Below are positions 11,632 through 35,014 of a stretch of 38,962 nt of DNA, one piece after another. The translations under genes and the position numbers were made by a program. Position 1 is the stretch's first letter; each line of letters opens with the position of its first letter. The notes below the pieces were generated by a model. That model was not told the DNA's origin. It was given only the letters and a program-made list of their open reading frames with translations, and did not search any database. Source of the DNA: Armatimonadota bacterium (GTDB lineage Bacteria > Armatimonadota > Armatimonadia > Armatimonadales > Armatimonadaceae); assembly GCA_026392155.1 (NCBI GenBank), contig JAPLCP010000137.1, positions 1 to 38,962 of the forward strand. The letters are read 5' to 3'.

Positions 11632-14600
11632 ATGATTCCTCCCCCGACCCCTGAGTGGGTGCAGCAGTGGCTATCCGCCTGCGAGCACTCCGTCTTTTCC
11701 CGGCGCCTTCCGATCACCCACTGGGCCTTTGAGCGTGGTGGGCAGACGCAAGCCGTGGCGATGGGTTTCTCCTGGACCGCGGCCGAAGAAGAGTGCTGGC
11801 TCCGGGCGAGTGTCACGATTCCCTCTGAGTGGGCAGGTGAGCGAGTCGGGCTGTGGTTTGAGCTGCCGGGCTGCGAGCCACTGCTCTCGGTGGATGGCAC
11901 GCTCTGGCAAGCGCTAGACTACAACCACGGGGATGTGCTTCTGCACGAAACAGCCACTGGTGGCGAGAGCCACACACTGGAGATTTCTTGCTACAGCCCC
12001 TCGCGCGGCGGCGAGGCGACCCTACAAACCGCAGAGCTTTTGCTGATTGATAGAGAGGCCGAGGGACTCTACTACGATGCCCTCACGGCAGTTGAGTTAC
12101 TGGGAGTTCTTAAGGATGAACATCTACGCTTAGCGATAGAGCAGGCGATGCAGGCAAGCACCGTCGCAGAGTCTCGCGCAGTGCTGGGAGCATTTTTCGC
12201 CCAGGCAGCCTCGGTCGGTGAGCCGCATGTCACACTGCTGGGACACTCGCACATTGATCTGGCCTATCTCTGGGCAATCCCTAACACGAAGCAGAAAGTG
12301 GGGCGGACATTTGCAACGGCCCTGCGCCTGATGCAGGAGTTCCCCGAGTTTGTCTTCACCCAGTCCCAGCCGCAGCTCTATGCCTGGTGCAAGGCGCTCT
12401 ATCCCGAGTTGTATACCCAAATCAAAGCCCGTGTCGCTGAGGGGCGCTGGGAACCAACAGGCGGAATGTGGGTGGAGGCCGACTGCAACCTCGCGTCGGG
12501 GGAGTCGCTGATCCGGCAAGTGCTCTTTGGCAATCGCTTCTTTGAGCAGGAGTTCGGCGTCACCACCAAGATCCTCTGGCTCCCCGATGTCTTTGGCTAC
12601 AGCGCGTCGCTGCCCCAGCTGATGAAGTCCTGTGGGCTCGAGTATTTTCTGACGTCGAAGATCGCCTGGTCGGACACCAACCGCATGCCCCACGACACGT
12701 TTCGCTGGCGCGGCATCGATGGCACCGAGGTGGTGACCCAGTTTCTCACGGCCCCTGAGTTCCACCGTGGGCTGAATCAGGAAATCTCTACCTACAACGG
12801 TCAGCTTACGCCCTACGAGCTGCGCCGTGGCTGGGAGCGCTACCAGAACAAAGATCTCCATCAAGAGATCTGCCATGCAGTCGGGCACGGTGATGGCGGT
12901 GGGGGAGTGACCCGTCGGATGCTGGAAGTGGCGCGGCGCCTCAAGAGCATTGCGGGTCTTGGCTCGTGTGGCTTTGACCGCGCGGATGCGTTTTTCGCGC
13001 GGCTCCCCAAGACGAATCTGCCCCTCTGGAGCGGCGAGCTGTACTTAGAGAACCATCGGGGGACGTACACCTCGCAGGGGCGTATTAAGCAGGGAAACCG
13101 CAGCGCCGAGCGCGCGCTTCGGAGCGCTGAGCTATTTGCCGCGCTGGCCCAGACACAGCTGGGAGCGCCCTATCCAAAACTTACCCTCGACGCGCTCTGG
13201 GAGACGCTGCTGCTCAACCAGTTCCACGATATCTTGCCTGGCACTTGCATCCGCCCCGCTGTGGAGCAAGCCGAGCACGAGCTGGGTGAGGTCGTTTCCG
13301 GTGCCCTCGCCCTCCAAGACGCGGCGCTGACAGAAATCTCCCAGAATATCGCCACGCCCACAGACTCGGTGATTGTCTTCAACCCCACCGACACGCTCCG
13401 GCCCGGCGATGCGTTCTATGTTCGGCTCCCCGGTGATCTGGTGCGCAAGGGGCGTGTCCTCTTCACCGACTCAGAGGGCGAGCCACTCAGTAGTCAGTTC
13501 CTGCGAATGGTTGGCAAGGAGCGTGAATATGTCGTCACGCTTCTGGATGTCGAGCCCCTCGGCTACCAGACCATTGGCCTGGGTCGCACCGATGCCCCCG
13601 CCGATGAGAGCACGGTAGTCGCCGAGGACAATATCCTGGAAAATGACTTTGTCCGAGTGACGCTCAATCAGTACGGCGAGCTCGCCTCAGTCGTCCACAA
13701 GACCGAAGACGGTGAACGCGAGGCCCTCGCTGCCCCCGCGATGCTGGTCGCGTACGAGGACAAGCCCGCCGCCTACGATGCCTGGAACATAGACGCCAGC
13801 TACCGCGACAAGCCCTGCCCCCTCGCCGACGAAGCCACGGTGACGCGCTTTGAGGTGATCGAAAACGGCCCGGTCCGTGCCAGTATCTTGGTCGAGCGCC
13901 AGTTCCGTAGCTCCAAAATCACCCAGCGCATCCAGCTCTGGGCGCACTCTGCCCGTGTCGAGCTGGTCACGGAGATCGACTGGCACGAGCACCAGACCCT
14001 GCTCAAGGCACATGTCCCCGCCACCGTGCTCGCCAGCCGCGCCACCTACGAGATTCCCTTTGGCGCGATCGAGCGGCCGACGCACCGCAATACCAGCTGG
14101 GACGCCGCCAAGTTCGAGGTCTGTGGCCACAAGTGGGCCGACATCTCCGAGGGCGACTTTGGCGTCAGTATTCTCTCGGACACAAAATATGGCTACGATG
14201 CCCGCGAGAACACGCTCTCGCTCACCCTCATCAAGTCCGGTATCTACCCCGATCCCGACGCCGACCAAGGCTTGCATCACTTCACCTACGCCGTTCTCCC
14301 CCACACCGGCGACTGGCGGAGCGAAACCGTCGACGAAGCCCATGCCCTCAGCTACCCGCTCCTCGCCCGCTTTGCCCCGAAAAATCCCAAGGCCGCGCTT
14401 CCCCCCCGCTACGACTTTGTCTCCGTAGACGACCAGGGGATCATTATCGAGACTGTCAAGTGCGCCGAAGCCGACAGTAGCTCTCTGGTCGTGCGTCTCT
14501 ACGAAGCGCTCCAAACCCGTGGCGAGGCAACCCTCACGTTTGGGTTTGAGATTGCGGCGGCCTACGAGACCAACAGCCTGGAGCAAGAGCCTGTGCCCGT

Positions 14601-14676
14601 GCCTTTTAAAGGCAGCTCACTCACGTTCCCGTACCGGCCCTTTGAGATCAAAACACTGGTGATCAAATCCAAGTAG
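11632..14676 (+). CDS. Alpha-mannosidase, glycoside hydrolase family 38
   Basis: This 1014-residue cytoplasmic enzyme has the GH38 layout: an N-terminal beta domain (about 1-190), the catalytic (beta/alpha)7 domain with H-S-H-I-D-L-A-Y-L-W (H207 and D209 as zinc ligands), and W-L-P-D-V-F-G-Y-S-A-S-L-P-Q with D319 as the likely nucleophile. A helical bundle region (Q-F-H-D-I-L-P-G-T) and long C-terminal beta-sandwich domains follow. It should cleave terminal alpha-mannosides from glycans. No signal peptide is seen. It stands alone behind repeat copy A and just upstream of mqnE, in a window rich in sugar enzymes. Confidence 0.93.
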   Translation: MIPPPTPEWVQQWLSACEHSVFSRRLPITHWAFERGGQTQAVAMGFSWTAAEEECWLRASVTIPSEWAGERVGLWFELPGCEPLLSVDGTLWQALDYNHGDVLLHETATGGESHTLEISCYSPSRGGEATLQTAELLLIDREAEGLYYDALTAVELLGVLKDEHLRLAIEQAMQASTVAESRAVLGAFFAQAASVGEPHVTLLGHSHIDLAYLWAIPNTKQKVGRTFATALRLMQEFPEFVFTQSQPQLYAWCKALYPELYTQIKARVAEGRWEPTGGMWVEADCNLASGESLIRQVLFGNRFFEQEFGVTTKILWLPDVFGYSASLPQLMKSCGLEYFLTSKIAWSDTNRMPHDTFRWRGIDGTEVVTQFLTAPEFHRGLNQEISTYNGQLTPYELRRGWERYQNKDLHQEICHAVGHGDGGGGVTRRMLEVARRLKSIAGLGSCGFDRADAFFARLPKTNLPLWSGELYLENHRGTYTSQGRIKQGNRSAERALRSAELFAALAQTQLGAPYPKLTLDALWETLLLNQFHDILPGTCIRPAVEQAEHELGEVVSGALALQDAALTEISQNIATPTDSVIVFNPTDTLRPGDAFYVRLPGDLVRKGRVLFTDSEGEPLSSQFLRMVGKEREYVVTLLDVEPLGYQTIGLGRTDAPADESTVVAEDNILENDFVRVTLNQYGELASVVHKTEDGEREALAAPAMLVAYEDKPAAYDAWNIDASYRDKPCPLADEATVTRFEVIENGPVRASILVERQFRSSKITQRIQLWAHSARVELVTEIDWHEHQTLLKAHVPATVLASRATYEIPFGAIERPTHRNTSWDAAKFEVCGHKWADISEGDFGVSILSDTKYGYDARENTLSLTLIKSGIYPDPDADQGLHHFTYAVLPHTGDWRSETVDEAHALSYPLLARFAPKNPKAALPPRYDFVSVDDQGIIIETVKCAEADSSSLVVRLYEALQTRGEATLTFGFEIAAAYETNSLEQEPVPVPFKGSSLTFPYRPFEIKTLVIKSK

Positions 14677-14685
14677 AAGACTCGC

Positions 14686-14714
14686 TTGACAGTCTTTCAC
14701 ACCGGCGATAGAAT
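14686..14714 (+). promoter_or_regulatory. Sigma-70 promoter of mqnE
   Basis: Perfect TTGACA (14686-14691), 17-bp spacer and TAGAAT (14709-14714). It is one of only three perfect -35 boxes at ideal spacing I see in the window. The -10 is embedded in the left end of the palindrome at 14709-14738. Confidence 0.8.
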
Positions 14715-14738
14715 TTGTGAACAAGTTCACAAATTCTA
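14709..14738. promoter_or_regulatory. Operator palindrome over the mqnE promoter (Rex- or CRP-like)
   Basis: A perfect 14-bp inverted repeat with a 2-bp spacer (AA) spans the -10 and the predicted start site. The core TTGTGAACAAGTTCACAA (14715-14732) fits the Rex redox-repressor consensus TTGTGAA-N4-TTCACAA exactly. It equally fits the CRP-family half-sites TGTGA-N6-TCACA. The location over +1 fits a repressor better than a class I or II activator. Confidence 0.75.
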
Positions 14739-14768: not shown

Positions 14769-15938
14769 ATGGCAACGTCAAGTTTTATGCACCAGTATCT
14801 CCGAACGGGAGAGCTTTCCCCGATCTACGATAAGGTGATGGAGGGCAAGCGGCTCTCCTTCGACGACGGGCTCACGCTGTGGAAGTCAGACGATCTCACG
14901 GCGATTGGTGCACTGGCCAATATCGTCCGCGAGGCCAAGAACGGCAACGATACCTACTACGTCCGCAACCAGCACATCAACTACACCAATCTCTGCAACA
15001 AGGGCTGTAAGTTCTGCTCGTTCTATGCTCAGAAAGGTGGCCCCGCGGCCTATACCATGAGCATGGATCAGGTGCGGGAGAAGCTAGAGCGCACCAAGCA
15101 CCTGCCCGTCACCGAGATTCACATGGTGGCAGGGATCAATAAAAAGCTTCCGTACTCCTACTATCTGGAGCTGCTTGATACCGTCAAAGCCACCCGCCCC
15201 GAGGCGCACATCAAAGCCTTCACGATGGTCGAGCTGCTTCATATTCAAACGTTGGCGCAGAAACCCATGACCGAGATGCTCCTTGAACTCAAGGCGCATG
15301 GGCTCTGTAGCCTACCCGGTGGGGGAGCGGAGATTCTCACGGATCGTGTCCACGATGCCATCTTCGAGCGCAAGGAGACGGCGGCGGAGTGGCTGGAGAC
15401 GGCCAAGACGGCGCATCGCGCAGGCCTGCATACCAACGCCACGATGCTCTACGGGCATATCGAGACGCTGGAAGAGCGTGTTGTCCACATGATGAAGCTC
15501 CGCGAGGCTCAAGATGAGACCAATGGCTTCTTGACCTTTATCCCACTGGCATTCTCTAGCAAGGGCACCAAGCTCTCTCATATTCCCAGCACCACGGGCT
15601 ATCTGGATCTCAAGGCCATCGCTATCGGGCGGCTGATGCTGGATAACTTCCCTCACATCAAGGCCTTCTGGATGATGATCACCCCTCCCGTGGCCCAGAC
15701 CGCGCAGTGGTACGGAGCCGACGATATTGATGGCACGATTGTGGAGTATGTCATCACCCACGAGATTGACGACGAAAACGAGCAGCAGAACCTCAGTCAG
15801 CGCCAGCTCGTGCAGATGATCGTGGAGGCAGGCCGCGACCCCGTGGAGCGCGACCCTCTCTACAACGTTATCGAGCGCGACGACAGCCGGATGCTCCTCG
15901 AAGACCCACGACGGCTCAGCCTTCCGATGCTGGCATAA
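14769..15938 (+). CDS. mqnE: Aminofutalosine synthase MqnE (radical SAM)
   Basis: This 389-residue radical SAM enzyme has C76-x3-C80-x2-C83 (L-C-N-K-G-C-K-F-C-S-F-Y) for the 4Fe-4S cluster, after H-I-N-Y-T-N. It then shows L-P-G-G-G-A-E-I, N-A-T-M-L-Y-G-H-I-E-T and H-I-K-A-F-W-M-M-I-T-P, and a C-terminal E-A-G-R-D-P-V-E-R-D-P-L-Y typical of MqnE rather than MqnC. It joins S-adenosylmethionine to the chorismate-derived enolpyruvyl benzoate to form aminofutalosine, a step of the futalosine route to menaquinone. No other mqn gene is in the window. The promoter carries a redox-type operator. The Shine-Dalgarno (TTAGGT) is weak. Confidence 0.92.
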   Translation: MATSSFMHQYLRTGELSPIYDKVMEGKRLSFDDGLTLWKSDDLTAIGALANIVREAKNGNDTYYVRNQHINYTNLCNKGCKFCSFYAQKGGPAAYTMSMDQVREKLERTKHLPVTEIHMVAGINKKLPYSYYLELLDTVKATRPEAHIKAFTMVELLHIQTLAQKPMTEMLLELKAHGLCSLPGGGAEILTDRVHDAIFERKETAAEWLETAKTAHRAGLHTNATMLYGHIETLEERVVHMMKLREAQDETNGFLTFIPLAFSSKGTKLSHIPSTTGYLDLKAIAIGRLMLDNFPHIKAFWMMITPPVAQTAQWYGADDIDGTIVEYVITHEIDDENEQQNLSQRQLVQMIVEAGRDPVERDPLYNVIERDDSRMLLEDPRRLSLPMLA

Positions 15939-33675: not shown

Positions 33676-34551
33676 CTAAATAGCGTAGCGCTCTAGGGCA
33701 GGAACCAGGCTGGGGGAGGCACCACAGGCAGCCTCTAGCGCGGTGGTCAGTGTCCGTAGCTCACGTCGCTCGCGCAGGAGGCTGAAGGCGCGGGAGCTTG
33801 TCGGAGCCATGAAGTCCTCGCGTCGGAAGAGCAAGTTATCGCCGTTGTCCAGCCGGTACCAGAGCTCTGGAGCCACGGCTAGCGCCCGGAGCGCGGTGTA
33901 GATCACCAGTGCCGGGAAGCGATCCTGCGTGCTGTTGTAGCGACGCTGCGGGTGCTGGTACGACGGATGCCCGAGCTCGCCGGGAGGGAGCTTTTCCAGC
34001 ACGGGAGCCCACAGGGCATCGTAGTCCAGAAGCCGTAGCTCGCTCTCGGGGGTCACCAAGATATTGCCGTGTTGCAAGTCCCCGTGGGCAAGCTGCGCGA
34101 CTTCAAGCTCCCGGATCAGCGCCACCCAGCGCCCCGCCAGCGCTTCCAGCGCTCTACGGTCATTGAGATGCCTCTCCACCCAGACATTCAGCGGCTCGCC
34201 CTCTTGCCAGGGCAGCTTCATCAGAGGAAAGCTGCCCGTTGCTAAGACCAGCCCCTCAGGCTGAAACTCAAAGGGCAGCAAGCACCCCGGCCAGCTTGGC
34301 AGGGCTGCCAGAAGAGCATAACGCGCCCTGCGATGCGGCTCATCGCGCAGAAAGAGCCGGACTGCCCACTCCTGCATGCCACTTCCGCCACTTTTAAGGC
34401 GATAGACATTGGCAAAGTTACCCGTGATCGGCTGGGGAAGCCCAAAGTGCCCGAGCAAGGTGAGTTGCGCGCTACCCAGCTCTCTATCGGTAAAGCAGTG
34501 AGCAGGGAACGCAAGTGCTTCCTGATAGTCGAGCTGTGTAGGCCAGGTCAT
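33676..34551 (-). CDS. Protein-kinase-like domain protein
   Basis: This 291-residue protein belongs to a prokaryotic kinase-like group: the N-lobe G-N-F-A-N-V-Y-R-L lies near residue 43 with W-A-V-R-L-F as strand 3 (Arg instead of the usual Lys), the catalytic loop is A-H-G-D-L-Q-H-G-N-I-L-V, and the metal loop is L-L-D-Y-D instead of DFG. E-L-G-H-P-S-Y-Q-H-P follows. It resembles stand-alone kinases next to phosphatase or VWA genes, but none is here. The substrate is unknown and catalytic activity is uncertain because of the altered lysine position. TAGAAT (minus strand, 34562-34567) is 10 nt before the ATG at 34551. Confidence 0.78.
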   Translation of the reverse strand: MTWPTQLDYQEALAFPAHCFTDRELGSAQLTLLGHFGLPQPITGNFANVYRLKSGGSGMQEWAVRLFLRDEPHRRARYALLAALPSWPGCLLPFEFQPEGLVLATGSFPLMKLPWQEGEPLNVWVERHLNDRRALEALAGRWVALIRELEVAQLAHGDLQHGNILVTPESELRLLDYDALWAPVLEKLPPGELGHPSYQHPQRRYNSTQDRFPALVIYTALRALAVAPELWYRLDNGDNLLFRREDFMAPTSSRAFSLLRERRELRTLTTALEAACGASPSLVPALERYAI

Positions 34552-34585
34552 CGCGAAAACGATTCTACCGTGTCTGGGAGAGACA

Positions 34586-34594
34586 TGGTATACT
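34586..34594 (+). promoter_or_regulatory. Extended -10 promoter of the zinc-ribbon leader
   Basis: TGGTATACT: a TATACT hexamer (34589-34594) with TG two bases upstream. It would start a ~160-nt leader before the ATG at 34763. A -35 is not evident. Confidence 0.5.
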
Positions 34595-34600
34595 ATTTTA

Positions 34601-34762
34601 CATCGCACACGTTCTGTGCAGAGAGTTTGTTAGAGCAAGCGGAGTTTTGCTCTCGAAACAGCGAGCGGCAGGTTCTTCTCTGGCCGCTTTTTTTGTGTGA
34701 GAGAGTTGGTTTGTGAAAAATTTCGCGAAGGTACGTGGTCCGTACCGGCAAGGAGTTTAAGA
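34601..34762 (+). ncRNA. Structured leader with internal terminator (candidate attenuator)
   Basis: Four hairpins in order: GCACA/TGTGC (34605-34619); AGAGCAA/TTGCTCT (34632-34653); an 8-bp stem AGCGGCAG/CTG(G)CCGCT (34664-34688) followed by seven Ts, which is a good intrinsic terminator; and GGTACG/CGTACC (34730-34746) just before the Shine-Dalgarno AAGGAG (34750-34755). Nothing codes in it convincingly. It may be a conditional leader of the zinc-ribbon gene or a ~95-nt small RNA. No known riboswitch class is recognised. Confidence 0.5.
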
Positions 34763-35014
34763 ATGAAATCCCCTGTGATGGGCGGCGGACGCCGCGAGCT
34801 TACCGTGACCTGCCCCGGATGTAGCTTCAACTGCATGTTGCCCCCCGCGGCTATCATGCGCAATCAGTTTTTCTGCTCGGGCTGTGGCAAGCAGCTCGAC
34901 CTCAAGCAGCTTCTACGAGCAATGGCAGGCGATGGCCCCGGCGTGGGTCTCGGCGCCCGCAATGACCGCGAGAGCCGCTACAAGAGCGCCCGCAAAGCTG
35001 CTGGTCGCCGTTAA
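34763..35014 (+). CDS. Small zinc-ribbon protein
   Basis: This 83-residue basic protein has two C-x2-C knuckles, T-C-P-G-C (about residue 17) and C-S-G-C-G-K (about residue 37), spaced 18-20 residues apart, so one zinc ribbon. The C-terminus is polar and basic (R-Y-K-S-A-R-K-A-A-G-R-R), suiting RNA or DNA contact. AAGGAG lies 7 nt before the ATG, one of the best ribosome sites in the window. The unusual long structured leader and the strong terminator after it show an independent, probably regulated and well expressed unit. Exact role unknown. Confidence 0.78.
   Translation: MKSPVMGGGRRELTVTCPGCSFNCMLPPAAIMRNQFFCSGCGKQLDLKQLLRAMAGDGPGVGLGARNDRESRYKSARKAAGRR

Follow-up and report, generated by a model that had tools for sequence, protein, structure and literature searches.

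The predicted promoter of mqnE, the aminofutalosine synthase gene of an Armatimonadota bacterium, carries a palindrome that is very probably a Rex binding site. We consider it highly likely that this site is a Rex operator over the −10 and +1 region of mqnE, that it mediates repression at low NADH which is relieved by NADH, and that the same type of operator is common to mqnC, menG, and nuoA. The Rex assignment is strong but unproven, and it is Rex binding, repression, and the NADH response that we infer.

Predicted mqnE promoter and its inverted repeat

In the window (the whole 38,962-nucleotide stretch of DNA that was analyzed), a glycoside-hydrolase-like gene (11632-14676) is the upstream neighbor of the mqnE promoter region, for which the following features were assigned.

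14686..14691, plus strand: −35 hexamer TTGACA, consensus match together with the −10 hexamer
14709..14714, plus strand: −10 hexamer TAGAAT, consensus match after a 17-bp spacer, abutting the operator core
14709..14738, no strand: perfect inverted repeat with arms of 14 bp each and AA at the center; the outermost ~5 bp of both arms are not kept in the congener
14715..14732, no strand: predicted Rex operator core TTGTGAACAAGTTCACAA over the predicted +1, from pattern and conservation
14769..15938, plus strand: mqnE, aminofutalosine synthase, 389 amino acids, the proposed target gene (NCBIfam TIGR03700, 443.6 bits, cut-off 434.55)

The two hexamers of the predicted promoter agree with the consensus at 11 of 12 positions; in shuffled versions of the region, promoter-like matches averaged 0.1 with both strands counted. 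The arms of the inverted repeat (14709-14722 and 14725-14738, 14 nucleotides each) are 100% complementary and leave two nucleotides between them, and the core matches TTGTGAA-N4-TTCACAA with 0 mismatches, whereas the chance expectation for this pattern within the window is 0.01, even with up to three mismatches. A preliminary description of this DNA had proposed both a perfect 14-bp inverted repeat lying over a consensus promoter and the exact fit of the core to the Rex site, and both were borne out. The core adjoins the −10 hexamer and spans the predicted +1 of mqnE, a position suited to blocking transcription from a promoter that is itself predicted. At the mqnE site of the congener G001, ATTTGTGAACAAGTTCACAAA is retained, but AGTC stands in place of ATTCTA. 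On sequence grounds, the outer portions of the arms are specific to the source genome, and conservation is confined to a core of ~20 bp.

The inverted repeat could alternatively work at the RNA level, as a leader hairpin or terminator of mqnE, and the strand of the source genome folds well (−16.9 kcal/mol, z = −4.4). However, the congener version folds no better than shuffles (z = −0.6), no terminator-like site was found at the mqnE promoter region, and relatives hold the protein-type consensus but lose the pairing, e.g. TTGCGGATTTTTTCACAA; compensatory changes that would preserve the pairing were not seen. The hairpin and terminator ideas were dropped because of the missing terminator, the weak congener fold, and the lost pairing, and action as RNA is considered extremely improbable. 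The repeat is treated below as a candidate Rex operator.

Rex and further Rex-type sites in the source genome

A rex gene, which the preliminary description had proposed to look for, is present as a single, intact copy in an obg-rex arrangement (L016 1018-1686, minus strand). The deduced product of 222 amino acids exceeds the cut-offs of the DNA-binding domain PF06971 and the dinucleotide-binding domain PF02629 as well as that of the Rex family NF003995 (245 bits, cut-off 126). Comparison with the solved Rex structures 3ikv, 1xcb, and 2dt5 gave E values of about 1e-45, with a match that spans the RKDLSYFG recognition segment, the GAGNLGSAL dinucleotide-binding loop, and the stretch between them.

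A pattern scan of the whole 4.77-Mb genome identified three copies of the exact sequence TTGTGAAN4TTCACAA, one each at mqnE, menG/ubiE, and a thiol-disulfide oxidoreductase gene. The second copy, TTTGTGAACATGTTCACAAA, lies directly before menG/ubiE (menG over the NCBIfam cut-off), with a polyprenyl diphosphate synthase gene (PF00348) next in line; together, the two genes cover the final reaction of menaquinone synthesis and its side chain. The thiol-disulfide oxidoreductase gene preceded by the third copy is ResA-like, and a double-redoxin, ResA-like gene with a conserved Rex-type site was observed in both genomes of the genus (L002 1501-1518; L178 1501-1518). Two-mismatch copies precede mqnC (TTGTGAAAACAATCACGA, L008; mqnC over the TIGR03699 cut-off) and nuoA (TTGTGATAAACTTCGCAA, L012), with nuoB next after nuoA. 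A further two-mismatch Rex-type site is found before a membrane pyrophosphatase-like gene (L015 1501-1518).

Conservation in the order and across the phylum

To avoid circularity, a classical-target matrix was built from 13 sites of non-menaquinone genes only (nuoA, cydA, ndh-like, rex, nadA, pncA, actA-like, and ctaA-like; most gene identities were checked by Pfam/NCBIfam, the remainder by reading) and was applied to the 250 bp upstream of mqnE, menG, and mqnC. At a threshold of at least 14 bits, it detected sites in 14 of 16 mqnE, 16 of 17 menG, and 8 of 13 mqnC promoters of the window's order, in line with the preliminary description, which had looked to relatives for conservation of the palindrome ahead of mqnE and other mqn genes. 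Scores of at least 14.9 bits were reached by none of 3020 shuffles, by 4 of 250 neighboring 270-bp windows, some of which may be promoters of minus-strand genes, and by 2 of 144 blocks of the window, namely the mqnE operator and the following site.

34711..34728, no strand: weaker Rex-type site TTGTGAAAAATTTCGCGA, 20.9 bits with the classical-target matrix

This weaker site sits between an ORF on the minus strand (33676-34608) and one on the plus strand (34697-35014), and the congener has the same gene pair with TTGCGAAACTTTTCACAA (L177). The minus-strand ORF matched no Pfam family and weakly resembles lanthionine-synthetase kinase regions.

The reciprocal matrix, derived from menaquinone sites only, found an operator on nuoA in 14 of 18 genomes belonging to the order, among them the source genome; cydA in G014 is another classical Rex target with an operator in the window's lineage. 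Since the two matrices find each other's target sets, it is very likely that one and the same regulator acts on menaquinone synthesis and complex I. In G001, both exact sites, before mqnE and before menG, are kept. In 37 of the 38 menaquinone sites of the order, the end of a −10-like hexamer falls somewhere from 2 bp within the operator to 14 bp ahead of it, and at the mqnE genes from 2 bp within to 3 bp ahead; this location fits a repressor. Genus g5 (G005, G009, G010, and G011) has kept the operators on menG and, where seen, on mqnE and has lost those on nuoA and mqnC, a pattern that, judged from these sites, is a partial rewiring of the regulon. The promoters of PF02621 genes (mqnA/mqnD) at plus-strand loci of the family showed no consistent operator, save in G002 (TTGTGAAGGAAATCACAA).

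The base composition of the sites bears on a second alternative, in which a TetR-type regulator would recognize the inner palindrome TGAAC-NN-GTTCA. The TetR gene of G017 has TTTTGAACACGTTCACAA and a second TGAAC-NN-GTTCA box upstream, and a similar tandem pair exists in G002. In the conserved 18-bp core, T occupies position 1 in 37 and A position 7 in 33 of the 38 menaquinone sites, whereas positions 8 and 11 are mixed, and the nuoA sites of the order read TTGTGATAAACTTCNCAA or TTGTGACATAATTCACA. The inner C and G are thus unconserved in the menaquinone and nuoA sites of the order, and this variation of the center contradicts recognition by a TetR-type protein, which we regard as very unlikely for mqnE. 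The tandem boxes themselves, found in G017, beside the TetR gene, and in G002 (L020 1430-1560; L027 640-720), probably serve a different regulator. A search restricted to GAAC-NN-GTTC gave too narrow a picture and led to the TetR site in G017.

The distribution of the Rex-type motif was followed in 101 genomes of the phylum (the source genome and 100 relatives; 68 with and 33 without rex), allowing at most one mismatch. Its density was 0.45/Mb in genomes with rex versus 0.11/Mb in those without (p = 5e-7) and, outside the window's order, 0.38/Mb versus 0.09/Mb (Mann-Whitney p = 2e-5), counts and densities from related genomes being non-independent events; a reversed control pattern reached 0.02-0.07/Mb. 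Elsewhere in the phylum, the motif lies on nuoA (G025, G052, and G062), cydA (G014), an ndh-like gene (G060), nadA (G060), pncA (G036 and G060), and rex itself (G080).

These data weigh on the reading that the preliminary description had offered beside Rex, in which a CRP/FNR-family protein reads TGTGA-N6-TCACA and controls mqnE, for example via a cyclic nucleotide or oxygen. Such half-sites are present in the mqnE palindrome, and three CRP-like proteins of the genome exceed the HTH_Crp_2 cut-off, two of which have CRP-type recognition helices that could read TGTGA (L409 SRESVNK and L411 TRETVNR); in genus g5, no CRP match other than the SRESVNK type was found. However, a CRP-like HTH occurs in 95 of the 101 genomes, yet the motif is ~4 times denser where rex is present, so that CRP presence does not explain the density difference and discriminates little. 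Moreover, the genes that carry the motif are typical of Rex, with NAD synthesis genes and rex itself among them, the conserved 18-bp core shows the outer T..A and the inner A/T of the Rex operator, and its place at or just after the −10 hexamer is that of a repressor. While the fit of the half-sites and the presence of CRP-like proteins stand, control by CRP/FNR is weakened by the targets and by a motif density that follows rex, and we consider it unlikely. The earlier preference for Rex over CRP is supported by the identity of the targets (nuoA, cydA, nadA, pncA, and rex) and by the contrast between genomes with and without rex.

In family f6, Rex-type sites were observed on pncA and nadA (L123 1522-2166; L200; L122 245-1456), and NAD supply is probably under Rex there too. 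In two other families, rex itself is linked to menG: in G053, it overlaps menG in the same direction, and in G071, it runs divergently from a menG-polyprenyl synthase pair (L266 980-2411; L265 950-2876). Outside the order, operators on menaquinone genes are scarce in genomes with rex (mqnE 2 of 31, menG 3 of 36) as in those without (mqnE 0 of 21, menG 1 of 17); since most rex-containing genomes there have no menaquinone operator, the phylogenetic test of the link between rex and menaquinone, taken alone, extends over the order only. Among 80 mqnE loci from named genomes, an operator of at least 12 bits was found upstream in 12, all from Armatimonadota, and in none of the loci from Poribacteria, Methylomirabilota, Latescibacterota, or Desulfobacterota.

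Proposed control of the quinone pool and known Rex systems

In the proposed mechanism, an NAD+-bound Rex dimer would sit on TTGTGAA-N4-TTCACAA at low NADH and block RNA polymerase at mqnE, and the build-up of NADH would release Rex and permit transcription. With the operator common to mqnC, menG, and nuoA, a backlog of electrons on NADH is expected to bring a joint increase in menaquinone synthesis and complex I: rising NADH would free all four genes at once, and more complex I and more menaquinone would oxidize more NADH, giving a feedback loop on the electron-transport chain that includes the mobile carrier. The quinone-pool size of these Armatimonadota would thereby appear to be set by the NADH level. 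With modest confidence, we favor the broader view that the Rex of this order is chiefly a controller of the quinone pool and complex I, with mqnE, mqnC, menG, and nuoA as its most conserved targets and with NADH pressure raising the supply of the carrier that serves NADH oxidation; the rex-menG linkage of two other families points to an old association within the phylum.

The setting of quinone-pool size in bacteria is described as poorly understood (PMC12421875). If true, a direct link from Rex to menaquinone would account for the matching of membrane electron carrier supply to the input of electrons, and it would provide the first predicted respiratory regulon for Armatimonadota. The operator type, the regulator, and several of the targets are already known; what is new, provisionally, is a predicted Rex regulon of Armatimonadota that has menaquinone synthesis among its conserved targets. 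No report of Rex acting on mqn (futalosine-route) or menG genes was found among the open-access papers covered, a scope outside which the main comparative study doi 10.1128/JB.06412-11 (J Bacteriol 2012) falls.

The published Rex operator is TTGTGAAN4TTCACAA (PMC8376106, PMC2883068, PMC5355995), from which Rex represses under NAD+ and lets go as NADH rises (PMC8376106, PMC2883068). Among the solved structures, the Rex proteins of T. aquaticus and T. thermophilus (PDB 1xcb, 3ikt, 3ikv, and 2dt5) are the best matches to the Rex of the source genome, with which they have the recognition-helix/wing segment RKDLSYFG...G..GVGY and the dinucleotide-binding loop in common. The Rex of Firmicutes (S. 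aureus, PMC2883068; S. agalactiae, PMC8376106) uses the same 18-bp operator near −10/−35, with NAD+-favored and NADH-relieved binding; unlike the menaquinone targets predicted here, its targets are mostly fermentative and anaerobic genes, and S. agalactiae Rex, when tested on the menA promoter, did not bind (PMC8376106). The Streptomyces regulon (S. coelicolor and S. avermitilis, PMC5355995) has the same operator and the target types nuoA, cydA, ndh, and rex in common with the Armatimonadota; hppA, a listed target in S. avermitilis (PMC5355995), has its counterpart here in the two-mismatch site before the membrane pyrophosphatase-like gene. Whereas the S. avermitilis target table contains no mqn or men gene (PMC5355995), mqnE, mqnC, and menG rank with the best-conserved predicted targets in the Armatimonadota order.
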